Source: Pseudothermotoga sp. (GTDB lineage: Bacteria; Thermotogota; Thermotogae; Thermotogales; DSM-5069). Taken from it: a stretch of 64,000 nucleotides of DNA. The notes beneath the pieces were generated by a model. It did no database searches, was not told the origin of the DNA, and worked only from the letters and a program-made list of their open reading frames with translations. The stretch covers positions 1-64,000 of the forward strand of contig JANXCS010000002.1 in NCBI GenBank assembly GCA_025060105.1, written 5' to 3'. Within the stretch, counting starts at the first letter, position 1, and every line of letters starts with the position of its first letter. Below, piece after piece: positions 35,027 through 40,319 of this stretch. The position numbers and the translations under genes are program-made.

Positions 35027-35903
35027 GCCCTTGGAATACACAGTCAACAGTGAGAACCTCTATTCGAGACTGGACAAATTCCTCAGAAAACAACTCAGCG
35101 ACGTTCCACTGTCGGAGATATACAAGCTTTTGCGAACTGGGAAGATCTGCGTGAATGGCAGACCCACGAAAAATCCTTCTTATGAACTTGAGCCCGGCGA
35201 TAAGGTGCAGATCAACGAGGATCTATCTAAGTATTCTCGTCAAACATCGTTGGTTAGGCCAATTCCAATCAAACTCGATATCTTGTACGAAGATGAAGAT
35301 CTGATAGTTTTGAATAAAAGAGCAGGTATAGCTTTACACCCGGGAGACAAAACGATTGGGACCACTCTCATACACGGTTTGATGTTCTACGGTAAACAAA
35401 AGGGATTCACACCGCACCTTGTGCACAGGCTTGACAGAGACACCTCCGGTGTCTTGCTAGTAGCGAAGAACAACAAGAGTGCGAGAACTTTGAGTCACAT
35501 GTTCAGAGAGAGACTCGTAGAAAAAGAATATCTCGCGCTCGTTGCTGGTCGGTTGCAAGGGAACGGAAAGATAGATCTAACGCTCGATGGACTCGAAGCT
35601 GTCACTGAATATATTGTCTTAGAAAGCTTTGATCGTGCAACACTTGTTCGAGTTTTTCTGCATACAGGAAGAACGCATCAAATCAGGAGACATTTTGCTG
35701 CTGTTGGTAATCCTGTGATTGGTGACACGATGTATGGAGACAAGAACGTGAATCGTTATTTTCATCAGGAGTTTGGACTGAGAAGACAATTTCTGCATTG
35801 TCTCAGGATGAGTTTCATGCATCCGAGCCGCCCGGACAGAATCAATGTGAAAGCTCCCATGCCTGAAGAATTGAAACAAGTTCTCGAGAGGCTGAGAAGA
35901 TGA
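35013..35903 (+). CDS. RluA/RluD family 23S rRNA pseudouridine synthase
   Basis: 296 residues. S4-like N-terminal domain ([20 protein letters not shown], about residues 20-80) and the catalytic [16 protein letters not shown] containing the essential aspartate, followed by [13 protein letters not shown] and [15 protein letters not shown]. Which uridines it modifies cannot be read from sequence. The ATG at 35013 overlaps smpB by 14 bases; TTG 35031, 10 bases after GGAGGG, is an equally good start. Confidence 0.92.
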
Positions 35904-37141
35904 AACATACACTTGTGTTGTTAATCATTTCAGGTTACCTTTTTGCAGCACAACTGTTGATCAATACCTTCGACATGACAGGCTATTTGTTTGAAGGTGG
36001 GGCGCATTCAAAGTTCAAAGTTCATTGTCCATCAGACTTGAGTCTAACTGACAAGCTTACAGACTTTTATGAACCAGTGAGATTGACCGTCGGTTATATC
36101 CCCATGCCAGATGTCCCGCTACTGATAAGTGAAAAAGGCTTCACTGTTTCTGCGAAGATAGGAAGCATCGTTGTTCCCGAAGAGATATTCACAAAACTTT
36201 TTCAAATAGTGAAATCAGGTCAAACAGTGGATTTGATCATTGATAGATATCCCGTCGAAATATACGCAAATAGAATAAAAGTTCTCGAACCGGTCAAGCC
36301 AGAGAAAATAGAATTCTTTTTGAATCGTTTCATTGAAAAATTTCCGAAGATCACAGGTCCTGGAGAATACAGTTTCGAAGTAAAACCAGTTTCCTACCAA
36401 CTTTTGATCTGTTGCTTTCCTGGTCTCGGAGGAACGATCATGGCGATTTTCGAAGGAGAACCGCGTGAACTAACCTTCGCAACAAGTGACATCAAAACCA
36501 AAGGATTTTCCATGAACTTGCCACCTGGTAACCATACTGTGCGAATCTCCATGCTCGGCGAAGCAACCGAGATAACACTGAACTTTCCAGATCGGTTTGT
36601 GAGACTCCAAACCAGTCAAATCGAACTCGGTGCAAACTGTGAAAAACAGTTGTATTTCATATCTGGGATTCAGAGATCGAACTGTTTTTCATACCCGGGA
36701 AGATTCCTTGGCTTAGAGTTTTCTAACGATTTGATCGTTCATGAACTGCTGGTTCGAGATACGACTCCCCCAAAACTCACCATGAATCTGAAACGGTTGG
36801 ATTCGATGTGTTTCGTCCAGCTGCAAGCAGAGGATGTTTCTCCATTTGAAACATTCCTATACGTTGACGGAGAAAAATTCTATTTTGATAGAGGTGTCTT
36901 GACTCTGTCTTCACTCAAACACACTCTGATTGGTATGGCGCAGGATACTTTCCAAAACACCTCGTACATCGTTCAAGTTCTAGAAAAACTAGAAGATACA
37001 CTGGTGTTTCCAGAAGAAAAGGTCATAGACATCGGTGGCTTCAAGTTTTTCTCACCATACTTGAGATGGCAAAGCTTTGGTGCAGTGAAAATAGAGGTGA
37101 AGATCAATGAAAAAATCGTTCGGCTTGAAAAGGATCGCTGA
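35900..37141 (+). CDS. Exported protein of unknown function
   Basis: 413 residues with a signal peptide ([18 protein letters not shown]) and otherwise beta-rich sequence, no membrane helices. A segment at about 180-240 (GGTIMAIFEGEPRELTFATS, MNLPPGNHTVRISMLG) looks like a PEGA-type or other Ig-like surface domain. ATG overlaps the pseudouridine synthase stop (ATGA) and its 3' end overlaps the next membrane protein gene by 35 bases, which suggests the two are made together. Function unknown. Confidence 0.78.
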   Translation: MKHTLVLLIISGYLFAAQLLINTFDMTGYLFEGGAHSKFKVHCPSDLSLTDKLTDFYEPVRLTVGYIPMPDVPLLISEKGFTVSAKIGSIVVPEEIFTKLFQIVKSGQTVDLIIDRYPVEIYANRIKVLEPVKPEKIEFFLNRFIEKFPKITGPGEYSFEVKPVSYQLLICCFPGLGGTIMAIFEGEPRELTFATSDIKTKGFSMNLPPGNHTVRISMLGEATEITLNFPDRFVRLQTSQIELGANCEKQLYFISGIQRSNCFSYPGRFLGLEFSNDLIVHELLVRDTTPPKLTMNLKRLDSMCFVQLQAEDVSPFETFLYVDGEKFYFDRGVLTLSSLKHTLIGMAQDTFQNTSYIVQVLEKLEDTLVFPEEKVIDIGGFKFFSPYLRWQSFGAVKIEVKINEKIVRLEKDR

Positions 37142-38411
37142 ACTATCCTTTTTCATACTAACTTTCATTTGTCTTGCTATTTTCTTTCCAAGTCGGTTTG
37201 TGACAGATGCTACAGATTTCGCTTACACAGTGGGTATATCTATCGATGATGACAGGATACAACTTCCTTCAGGGAGAATAGTCTGGGTGATAGATCCAGG
37301 CGAACAAATAGAACCTGGCATGGAATACGTCACATTCAGAGGTGACTTCGAAGGATACGATGCGAAAATTTATGCCCAGCAAGCAGACTCTTATGGAACA
37401 TGGATCGGCATGCTTGAGTTCAACGACAGTACAGATTTTGTCAAAAAGATCGTGATGCTCAGAAGGGACCACAAAAAATTCTTTAGAATCCACACGATAA
37501 GACAAGAAGAAGTGGAGAAGATGAAACTGACAAATTCAATGATCTATTACAGATTCAGAAGAGCCATCCTCGAACGCAGTATCGATATGATTTGGATCCA
37601 ACCACTAGAAAATGTGGACATAAAGTGGGTGCTTGAAAAAATAGAGCATCAGTTTGGTAAACCCAAGGATACACCACAACCTAACGATACTTCCTTTCAC
37701 TTCCAATGGCTCGCTTTCATCGCGATGGTTTTGCTACTCTTTTCACAAAAACCCTTACTGGGAATCTTGGCGGCACCACTGTGGTTCTTGAATCGTTCTT
37801 TAGCTGTTTCAGTTGTTTCCATTCTGGCAACTGTTTTCATTTATTCGTACAGAAAGAAAGAGATCTTACCCATTTTGTACTTGATTCTTGGATTGTTGAC
37901 AAACGCTGCTTTGTGGGACTTCTGGCATGTGAACGATCTGAACGTTTACAGAGGAGTTAAACTCTCCATCTCACTGTTGCCACTGTTCGTTCTCGCAAAA
38001 ACTGTGATGAAAGAATGGAACTGGCTGAGAAGGTACTGGCCGCTGGGTTTCGCTGTACTTGCTGGTGCTGGTTTCTATTACCTTTCACGCTCTGGGAATA
38101 CAGCTTTCGTCACCAATCTTGAAAGACAATTGCGAGACACCATCGAGGGTTTTTTGTGGGTGAGACCAAGGTTCAAAGAAATCATAGGTTATCCGGCATT
38201 TTCTCTCTGGCTGAGTTTTGGAAACTTCAAATGGGCTTTTCTGTTCGAGTTGCTAGGTAGCATAGCTTTGGTCTCTACTTTCAACACGTTCTGCCACATC
38301 AAGACACCTTTGATGGTGTCATTGTACAGATCTGTTTTCTCTATTCTGATCGGTTACTTAACGTTGATGATACTGCGAAGGGTGAAGAATAATGTTACTC
38401 AACGTGTATGA
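37107..38411 (+). CDS. DUF5693-like polytopic membrane protein
   Basis: 434 residues: one N-terminal membrane helix (about 11-30), an extracytoplasmic domain to about residue 195, then about eight hydrophobic segments. The C-terminal motif GFLWVRPRFKEIIGYPAFSLWLS resembles the RPR-K-E-GYPAL motif of DUF5693 proteins, which in other bacteria lie beside cell-surface polysaccharide pyruvyltransferase genes. Here it is shorter than that family. Begins inside the preceding exported-protein gene. Confidence 0.72.
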   Translation: MKKSFGLKRIAELSFFILTFICLAIFFPSRFVTDATDFAYTVGISIDDDRIQLPSGRIVWVIDPGEQIEPGMEYVTFRGDFEGYDAKIYAQQADSYGTWIGMLEFNDSTDFVKKIVMLRRDHKKFFRIHTIRQEEVEKMKLTNSMIYYRFRRAILERSIDMIWIQPLENVDIKWVLEKIEHQFGKPKDTPQPNDTSFHFQWLAFIAMVLLLFSQKPLLGILAAPLWFLNRSLAVSVVSILATVFIYSYRKKEILPILYLILGLLTNAALWDFWHVNDLNVYRGVKLSISLLPLFVLAKTVMKEWNWLRRYWPLGFAVLAGAGFYYLSRSGNTAFVTNLERQLRDTIEGFLWVRPRFKEIIGYPAFSLWLSFGNFKWAFLFELLGSIALVSTFNTFCHIKTPLMVSLYRSVFSILIGYLTLMILRRVKNNVTQRV

Positions 38412-39330
38412 TCCGGGTTATTTAACAAGATTGAGGATGCTTCAAGTTAAAAGAAAGCATCAAATTGATTCTCTACGCAGGTTCAAAATCAATAATCAAG
38501 CCGTGATCTCCTTCATTAAAGATGCGCTGGGCCCCATCAAATCTGTGGAGGTATCGGAGAGATTGATCAATTCGTTTCGGGATCTCGTGTACGGTTCGGG
38601 TACCATCGTCGAAAGATTGAAAAAGTTCGCTGAGATCAATAGTTTACCTGAACCGAGTGGGTTGGAGCCATTCTTTTGGCTGAAACCGAAATCTTATCCC
38701 CCACCTTCAAGTGAAATGAGGGAACTGATAGAAAATGACGATGTTTTGCATTTCGTTAGAAAAGCCAGGTATTTACTCGAAAAATCAAATTTAGAAGACT
38801 TTTTGGAATTTCAAGCTGCTATCATGAAAAGTAACACAGAGGAGATCGATTGGCTCGCTCAGCAAGTGAATTCAGTTAAGTTAACATGTGTAAGTGAAGC
38901 TGAGGTGATCGTTGAACTTTTCAAAGAACTGGACGAGATTTCGAAAGTCGAGTTGCTGTCAAAACTCAAATGCCATCCTTACGTGAAGGCCATGTTTGTG
39001 AGAAAACCAAGCCGACCTGTCGTTTTAGATGGGAGTAATATAGCAAGGCTGAGGGGTAAATTGTCGGACATAGATTTCATTCTGGAAAGACTCGCAACGT
39101 TCAACGAATTTCTTTATCCATATTACTTGGTTTTCGACAAAAACATCAGACACATTTTTCAGGTTGAAAGTGAATGGTTCCATGCGGAAAGAACATACTT
39201 TCACTCACCCGCGGACGAGCTCATAATATCGATAGCGCTTGAAAAAAACGCAGTGGTCGTGAGTGGCGATCGATTCGAAGAATGGAATCAAAAAATCGAC
39301 AGAATAGATGTGAGGAGGTTTTTCGAGTGA
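38392..39330 (+). CDS. NYN (Zc3h12a-like) domain putative ribonuclease with unknown N-terminal region
   Basis: 312 residues. The last 110 match the NYN/PIN-like nuclease fold of the Zc3h12a (Regnase) group: PVVLDGSNIARLRG (first acidic residue), YYLVFDKNIRH, HSPADELIISIALEKNA (second acidic pair) and VVVSGDRFEEW. The first 200 residues are helical and unfamiliar (DALGPIKSVEVSERLINSFR; FFWLKPKSYPPPSSEMRE), possibly RNA- or protein-binding. Starts at ATG 38392 in the end of the membrane protein gene and overlaps queA (GTGA). Nuclease activity on RNA is inferred from the fold. Confidence 0.8.
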   Translation: MLLNVYDPGYLTRLRMLQVKRKHQIDSLRRFKINNQAVISFIKDALGPIKSVEVSERLINSFRDLVYGSGTIVERLKKFAEINSLPEPSGLEPFFWLKPKSYPPPSSEMRELIENDDVLHFVRKARYLLEKSNLEDFLEFQAAIMKSNTEEIDWLAQQVNSVKLTCVSEAEVIVELFKELDEISKVELLSKLKCHPYVKAMFVRKPSRPVVLDGSNIARLRGKLSDIDFILERLATFNEFLYPYYLVFDKNIRHIFQVESEWFHAERTYFHSPADELIISIALEKNAVVVSGDRFEEWNQKIDRIDVRRFFE

Positions 39331-40319
39331 AGCTTTCTGACTTCGATTACCACCTTCCTGAAGAATTGATAGCACAGACTCCTGTGGAACCGCGAGACAG
39401 TTCCAGATTGATGGTTGTTCACAGAAAATCCGGTGAAATAGAACACAAAATCTTCCGTGAAATCGTCGAATATCTCTCGCCTGGCGATGCGTTGGTATTG
39501 AACAACACTAAAGTGATTCCTGCAAGATTGTTCGGTCAACTTGAGGATAAACAGATCGAAATATTACTCATAGAAAAAGTTGGAGAGAGGCTATGGAAGT
39601 GTCTAGCCAAACCAGCTAAGAAGATGAAACCAGGTGTGGTAGTACACCTGAATGCCGAAATCATAGCAAAGTGCATCGAAAGGCTCCATGAAGGACTGAG
39701 ATTGATCGAGTTCAACGTGGACGATGAGTCTATTTTGAAACTCGGTGAGGCACCAATACCTCCGTACGTTCGAGCGAAGATACCACTTGAAAGGTACCAA
39801 ACAGTCTATGCCAAGGTTGCTGGTTCCGTCGCTGCGCCCACGGCAGGTTTTCACTTCACTGAGGCTTTGCTGGAGAAAATACGTTCAATGGGTGTGAGAG
39901 TTCTCGAAGTCACTTTACATGTGAGTATCGGCACTTTTAGACCTGTCAAAACAGAGAGAATAGAGCAGCATAAGATGCACAGCGAACGTTACTTTATTCC
40001 CTTAGATGTTGTCGAAAACATAAAACATGCAAAGTCTGAAGGGAGGAAAGTCATAGCCGTGGGTACAACTGTTGTACGAACGCTCGAAACTTTCGCCAGA
40101 ACGAACATTACAGAAGGTGAGACAGACTTGTTCATATACCCACCATTCGAGTTCAAACTGGTCGATGCGTTGATCACAAACTTTCACTTACCTAGATCCA
40201 CCCTTCTGATGCTTGTGGCTGCCTTCGCAGGTTACGATTTGACAATGAACGCCTACAGAGAAGCCGTGGAGAAGAAATACAGATTCTATTCCTTTGGGGA
40301 TGCCATGTTGATCCTTTGA
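39327..40319 (+). CDS. queA: S-adenosylmethionine:tRNA ribosyltransferase-isomerase
   Basis: QueA transfers the ribosyl group of SAM to preQ1-modified tRNA, giving epoxyqueuosine, the substrate of QueH (gene at 16642). Motifs: FDYHLPEELIAQTPVEPRD, LSPGDALVLNNTKVIPARL, GSVAAPTAGFHFTEAL, THL-type LHVSIGTFRPV, and NFHLPRSTLLMLVAAFAG. 330 residues. GTG 39327 overlaps the stop of the NYN gene (GTGA) with GAGGAGG upstream. Confidence 0.96.
   Translation: MKLSDFDYHLPEELIAQTPVEPRDSSRLMVVHRKSGEIEHKIFREIVEYLSPGDALVLNNTKVIPARLFGQLEDKQIEILLIEKVGERLWKCLAKPAKKMKPGVVVHLNAEIIAKCIERLHEGLRLIEFNVDDESILKLGEAPIPPYVRAKIPLERYQTVYAKVAGSVAAPTAGFHFTEALLEKIRSMGVRVLEVTLHVSIGTFRPVKTERIEQHKMHSERYFIPLDVVENIKHAKSEGRKVIAVGTTVVRTLETFARTNITEGETDLFIYPPFEFKLVDALITNFHLPRSTLLMLVAAFAGYDLTMNAYREAVEKKYRFYSFGDAMLIL

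Follow-up and report, generated by a model that had tools for sequence, protein, structure and literature searches.

Thermotogota genomes keep, in 97 of the 103 searched, a mostly single-copy gene in which an NYN nuclease domain follows an all-helical N-terminal domain. The copy described here lies in a window of 64,000 nt, the whole stretch of Pseudothermotoga DNA that was analyzed. Its product is very probably an active NYN endoribonuclease. The reading that we favor, which has about an even chance of being right, is that of a Thermotogota housekeeping enzyme that would act on RNA of the translation apparatus, the helical domain positioning the substrate. Thermotoga maritima has long been used as a model of a deep-branching hyperthermophile, and the RNA-cutting repertoire of Thermotogota seems poorly charted. 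The candidate RNase, so widely retained and unchanged at its active site, is probably important. It would also give an example of how a blade of the Regnase type, known chiefly from animal immunity, serves bacteria as a housekeeping enzyme.

The open reading frame, which a preliminary description had proposed from the sequence alone, is real and begins with ATG (Table 1). As that description had stated, the motifs VVLDGSNIA, SPADELIISIAL, and VVVSGDRF all fall within the final ∼110 residues of the 312-residue protein. The tight coupling that it saw with a membrane protein gene and with queA is borne out by overlaps on both sides: 20 nt with the upstream DUF5693 gene and, provided that queA starts at the GTG at 39327, 4 nt (GTGA) between the NYN stop codon and queA. 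Also upstream of the NYN gene, and in the same direction, are gatC, a YraN family gene, smpB, an RluA family pseudouridine synthase gene, and an uncharacterized gene; a sigma-54-like gene and a thiamine diphosphokinase gene lie 3′ of queA. The ORF beside the DUF5693 gene (positions 35900 to 37141; 413 aa) had no Pfam match at an E value of ≤10.

Table 1. Features of the NYN gene region in the window (nucleotide positions) and related genes on other contigs (contig:positions)
Feature	Position	Strand	Basis
NYN endoribonuclease gene (predicted), 312 aa	38392..39330	+	ORF; PF11977; orthologues in 97/103 Thermotogota genomes
N-terminal domain, all-helical, residues 1-204	38392..39003	+	AlphaFold2 models; no Pfam match
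Subregion, residues 21-114, with motif L-YG-G-I--R---F ... P--YP-P; probable kin of a nuclease-associated helical domain	38452..38733	+	HMMER, hhalign
HPY motif, residues 195-197, directly before the nuclease domain; Y197 invariant	38974..38982	+	Alignments
NYN/PIN-like nuclease domain, residues 205-312, with D213, N216, D249, D275, and D293	39004..39327	+	Pfam, PDB profile, structure model
DUF5693 (PF18949) predicted membrane protein gene, upstream	37107..38411	+	Pfam; neighbor only
queA, downstream partner conserved in four families	39327..40319	+	ORF, Pfam
L9-NYN fusions	L057:1034-1798, L058:6039-6803, L059:5973-6737, L060:5608-6408		
Carriers of the helical domain of PLD-type and PD-(D/E)XK-like proteins	L158:889-2037, L159:592-1791, L161:2869-3948, L162:184-1302, L163:326-1387		

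Residues 205 to 312 can be assigned, with good support, to a nuclease domain of the Zc3h12a NYN type (PIN-like). PF11977 (RNase_Zc3h12a) was the sole Pfam match of the window protein at an E value of ≤10 and passed its curated cutoff (28.8 bits against 23; E = 1.2e-6). The same model matched each of the 33 sequences in an alignment that spans the phylum at an E value of ≤1, and three other orthologues scored one by one stayed under the cutoff (18.2, 20.9, and 18.8 bits). A profile of the 33 sequences matched ZC3H12A (E = 3.7e-7), ZC3H12B, ZC3H12C, and KHNYN in the PDB, and no model in NCBIfam or PADLOC matched the window protein (0 PADLOC families at an E value of ≤1). In a six-frame genome search, PF11977 missed the window gene in its own genome, though the translated protein matches. 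Surveys with that model will therefore undercount the family, and we sought orthologues with the protein and the alignment instead.

An AlphaFold2 model of the whole protein, built from 16 sequences (mean pLDDT, 90.6; pTM, 0.76), shows a PIN-like NYN fold preceded by a helical part. Foldseek returned no PDB match to this model at an E value of ≤0.001, and the relation to ZC3H12 and KHNYN structures comes from re-alignment of the Foldseek candidates, not from Foldseek E values. Among the matches listed after re-alignment, eleven ZC3H12, KHNYN, or Regnase entries lead (Z of 10.0 to 10.8; root mean square deviation of 2.6 to 3.0 over 105 to 116 residues), including ZC3H12C (Z, 10.8; 2.7 Å; 106 aligned), KHNYN with RNA (8wzc; Z, 10.7; 2.6 Å; 108 aligned), and MCPIP1 (Z, 10.4). 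PRORP2 (Z, 8.3) and a FEN1 entry (Z, 7.5) matched the NYN domain with lower scores. The earlier call of an NYN nuclease is thus upheld by Pfam, by the PDB profile, by a confident model, and by catalytic residues found in 96 or 97 of the 97 genomes that carry the gene.

These residues are D275 and D293, present in every gene-bearing genome, and D213, N216, and D249, present in 96, the remaining copy being cut by a contig end. Y197 and N251 are nearly as constant (96/97 and 95/97, respectively). Loss of acidic residues in orthologues, which the preliminary description had named as evidence that would speak against a nuclease, was looked for in all 97 genomes and did not occur. In the alignment with ZC3H12A, D213 and N216 fall on DGSN, and D275 and D293 fall on the Asp of DRFI and that of SND; we take their Regnase-1 counterparts to be D141, N144, D226, and D244. 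That all acidic motifs of the Zc3h12a/Regnase nucleases are present, as had been claimed, holds for these four positions and fails for the paired Asp-Asp of Regnase-1 (presumably D225/D226), which is Ala-Asp here, with A274, at the place of D225, in 97/97 genomes. The Thermotogota proteins carry an extra, nearly invariant motif, F248-D249-x-N251, that closes the second strand, and D249 could stand in for the missing Regnase-type carboxylate.

The N-terminal 204 residues are modeled as 13 helices (mean pLDDT, 85.3 for this part alone). This part had been said to match nothing known, and no convincing relative emerged from Pfam (no match for the window protein) or from the PDB (best sequence E value, 0.079; no Foldseek match at ≤0.001); BFVD likewise gave no match at an E value of ≤0.001. 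Structure re-alignment reached at best a Z of 5.4 over 56 residues, in rows mostly spanning residues 146 to 204, and gave no fold assignment. The statement needs amending for residues ∼21 to 114, which are probable kin of a domain found in PLD-type and PD-(D/E)XK-like proteins. Two genomes of the 287 searched outside the phylum gave HMMER matches to the N-terminal domain (one-genome E values of about 3e-6 each), both in proteins where a PLD nuclease domain is followed by a region with L-YG-G-I--R---F ... P--YP or a variant of it. This region has plasmid relatives whose C-terminal part is PD-(D/E)XK-like, as judged by eye. When the Thermotogota N-terminal profile was aligned by hhalign with six such sequences, the probability was 88.6 and the score 43.7 over 94 columns, against 21.2 for the best of 150 column shuffles and 14.1 for the reversed alignment. 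With only the four sequences that the profile had not found, the score was 25.4 and the probability 10.1 (best of 100 shuffles, 15.4). The relation covers the first half of the domain.

A helix-hairpin-helix origin of the N-terminal domain is only a suspicion; the OGG model PF21790 matched one relative at an E value of 0.044. The net charge of the domain has a median of +5 and ranges from −9 to +17 among 93 proteins (4/97 were omitted, their DG(S/N)N motif being missing or placed before residue 150), and with such variability, charge is not a strong argument for RNA binding. As a separate observation, a helical domain of approximately the form (L)YGxGxIxxRxxxF...GLGxaxxSEiLxxxxPxxYPxxN recurs in bacteria and archaea, both in nucleases of the PLD type and in plasmid proteins that are PD-(D/E)XK-like, and in the proteins tested no Pfam model scored above its cutoff for this domain. 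A T. maritima-type match to the N-terminal part (L061) proved to be an IF-2B family protein and was rejected. A 483-aa ORF (L148) matched at an E value of 5e-5.

The nuclease part was found in none of the 287 genomes outside Thermotogota, which were searched together with the same 103 (390 in total); the two outside matches concern the N-terminal domain alone. A GTDB scan with a single pattern returned 15 relatives, all from Thermotogota save one record labeled 'bacterium isolate FK4.bin83'; because it recovered only a fraction of Thermotogota, it carries little weight for absence elsewhere, for which the 287-genome search is the better guide. Plasmids and viral contigs held no relatives of the window protein. 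Fourteen close pairs were compared for selection, among them one identical, one nearly so, and one in which the N-terminal part had saturated dS; for the remaining pairs, omega was about 0.03 to 0.20 in both domains, indicating strong purifying selection. The literature searched, which omits most subscription papers, contained no description of the Thermotogota NYN family. The 2017 PIN classification or the 2006 NYN paper may well include the Thermotoga domain.

The NYN gene is missing from 6 of the 103 genomes and queA from 5, both being missing from 4 (G044, G048, G082, and G083). We dropped this co-loss as evidence: all are drafts, G044 is 60% complete, and G082 and G083 belong to one genus in a family where the two genes adjoin. 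The tgt gene is kept in G048, G082, and G083. In G075, which lacks the NYN gene, queA reaches the contig end, and the absence may be an assembly gap. Separately, the NYN frame is broken in the N-terminal part in draft genome G026 (L109) and in several places in draft genome G089 (L108), which decay or assembly error could explain.

The coupling to queA extends beyond the window. queA lies directly downstream of the NYN gene in 41 of the 97 genomes, spread over families f1, f8, f9, and f11, and is not adjacent in 56. These four families have 49 genomes with the NYN gene, and the 41 are among them; in the other 48 genomes, coordinates compared by eye gave no adjacency. Gene context was taken from 62 loci, 57 of which had a usable NYN ORF. 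The gene immediately upstream on the same strand differs between families: DUF5693 in f1 (the window's own family), TsaE or YchF in f9 (the YchF score of 267 is just under the cutoff of 279), FtsY in f5, MnmG in f4 (1-nt overlap), and GatA in f8 (4-nt overlap). Other loci have a metallo-beta-lactamase (f3), SAM hydroxide adenosyltransferase and DUF1667 (f2), an auxin-efflux-like protein (f4), or one of several uncharacterized genes in this place. QueA, MnmG, TsaE, and GatA are tRNA enzymes, in part of the wobble position. By a hand count compiled afterwards, with no background frequency, 5 of roughly 14 upstream neighbors serve tRNA or translation. Neighbors with no link to translation include the metallo-beta-lactamase, Maf, SAM hydroxide adenosyltransferase, DUF1667, a flagellar-rod-like protein, and PepT. 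At one locus (G021; L087:7114-8721), a 535-aa protein whose gene adjoins the NYN gene on the other strand gave beta-lactamase-fold and RMMBL (RNA specificity) matches, both weak and below the cutoff.

A second form of the nuclease occurs in three f4 genomes, where four extra genes (255 to 267 aa) encode the N-terminal domain of ribosomal protein L9 followed by an NYN domain. PF01281 (L9 N-terminal domain) scored 32.5 and 23.7 bits in the two fusions tested (cutoff, 20.7), and the NYN motifs of these paralogues are DGSN, FD, DYAD, and S-D-F. Stand-alone L9-like ORFs (157 to 163 aa) are present in two of the three genomes, and searches of plasmids and viral contigs gave no relatives of the L9-NYN proteins. 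An NYN blade joined to a ribosomal RNA-binding module would lean the whole family toward ribosomal or translation RNA.

Taken in this direction, the C-terminal NYN domain would cleave RNA with the help of divalent metal, using D213, N216, D249, D275, and D293, and the helical domain would bind and position the RNA or ribonucleoprotein. RNA cutting is suggested by the KHNYN structure solved with RNA (8wzc) and by the Bacteroides fragilis NYN protein, a Mn-dependent RNase (PMC11346440). Given activity, the neighbors and the L9 fusion point to a substrate in the translation apparatus with a likelihood no better than even, and perhaps a shade below; tRNA or its precursors, rRNA, or ribosome-held RNA would be the most likely targets, and the cut would be one of processing or quality control, not of bulk membrane-associated decay. 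Against this reading stand the Ala-Asp pair, the sub-cutoff orthologue scores, the failure of PF11977 to recover the gene in the six-frame search, the Foldseek null, the nonadjacency of queA in more than half of the genomes, the neighbors without a translation link, and the DNA nuclease-like partners of the N-terminal domain's kin. An unlikely elaboration, which we offer as speculation, is that of a surveillance endonuclease for tRNA or ribosomes peculiar to Thermotogota, an NYN blade joined to a helical domain that gives specificity, retained beside QueA, MnmG, TsaE, and GatA and checking or trimming tRNA or ribosome-bound RNA, with the second blade of one family delivered to the large subunit by the L9 RNA-binding domain.

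Of the other explanations, the one to be taken most seriously, possible if rather doubtful, is an endonuclease of mRNA decay, either general or ribosome dependent. It would be a functional counterpart of Bacillus Rae1/YacP and would cut mRNA, perhaps in the A site of the ribosome, its association with tRNA genes being incidental. The Rae1/YacP family itself (PF05991, NYN_YacP) is missing from all 61 Thermotogota genomes searched for it, and smpB and the RluA family gene lie 3 to 4 kb upstream in the window in the same direction. However, RNase E/G is found in 61/61 genomes, so that an endonuclease that initiates mRNA decay is already there, and the smpB link was seen in the window's family only. 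Rae1 was not among the matches listed in the structure comparison, an absence that is no evidence of difference. The preliminary description had raised the possibility of tRNA or mRNA decay at the membrane. Its tRNA half gains support from queA and the other tRNA and translation neighbors, but membrane-coupled decay with the DUF5693 protein as an anchor, for which the 20-nt overlap speaks, is the least probable reading considered, since a DUF5693 gene adjoins the NYN gene in just 3 of the 57 loci with context, all from f1.

The N-terminal relation bears on the substrate in another way: kin that sit beside DNA nuclease-like domains (PLD and PD-(D/E)XK-like) on plasmids and genomes could point to DNA, as could the FEN1 match, and the protein might then be a defense or DNA-directed nuclease. 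We regard this as improbable, given the phylum-wide, mostly single-copy retention under purifying selection, the lack of a PADLOC match and of plasmid or viral-contig relatives of the window protein, and leading fold matches that are RNases. Less probable still, the invariant alanine at one Regnase-type Asp might mark a catalytically dead NYN fold that serves as an RNA-binding factor, but in every genome with sequence at these positions, five polar or acidic residues of the active site are kept unchanged, a constancy for which a dead domain would have no need.

Set beside known systems, the housekeeping enzyme proposed here resembles Rae1/YacP as a bacterial NYN endoribonuclease, and the FD and AD(D/E) motifs of that family may resemble those of the Thermotogota protein. 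PF05991 did not match the window protein at an E value of ≤10 and matched 2 of 33 relatives weakly (best E, 0.12), and to our knowledge Rae1 has no N-terminal domain of this type. PRORP likewise combines a helical N-terminal part with a C-terminal NYN domain; the window protein differs in having no PPR family match and no zinc-binding cysteine set, and its Z score to PRORP2 is lower than that to the ZC3H12 entries. Thermotoga RNase P is of the ribozyme type. The B. fragilis protein, another bacterial NYN nuclease, differs in being CRISPR associated; it is described as a Mn-dependent single-stranded RNA endonuclease that is MARF1/VPA0982-like by DALI search (PMC11346440). Closest are ZC3H12A/Regnase-1 (MCPIP1), ZC3H12C, and KHNYN, which the window protein resembles in profile, in predicted fold, in the positions of D213, N216, D275, and D293, and in the SxD(R/T)(F/Y) motif. 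Unlike these, the protein is bacterial and was found here only in Thermotogota, and it differs from Regnase in its helical N-terminal domain, in the Ala for one paired Asp, and in the FDxN motif. It lacks the CCCH zinc finger that follows the NYN domain in animal ZC3H12 proteins: the NYN domain runs to the last residue, 312, and the two cysteines of the protein both lie in the N-terminal domain.
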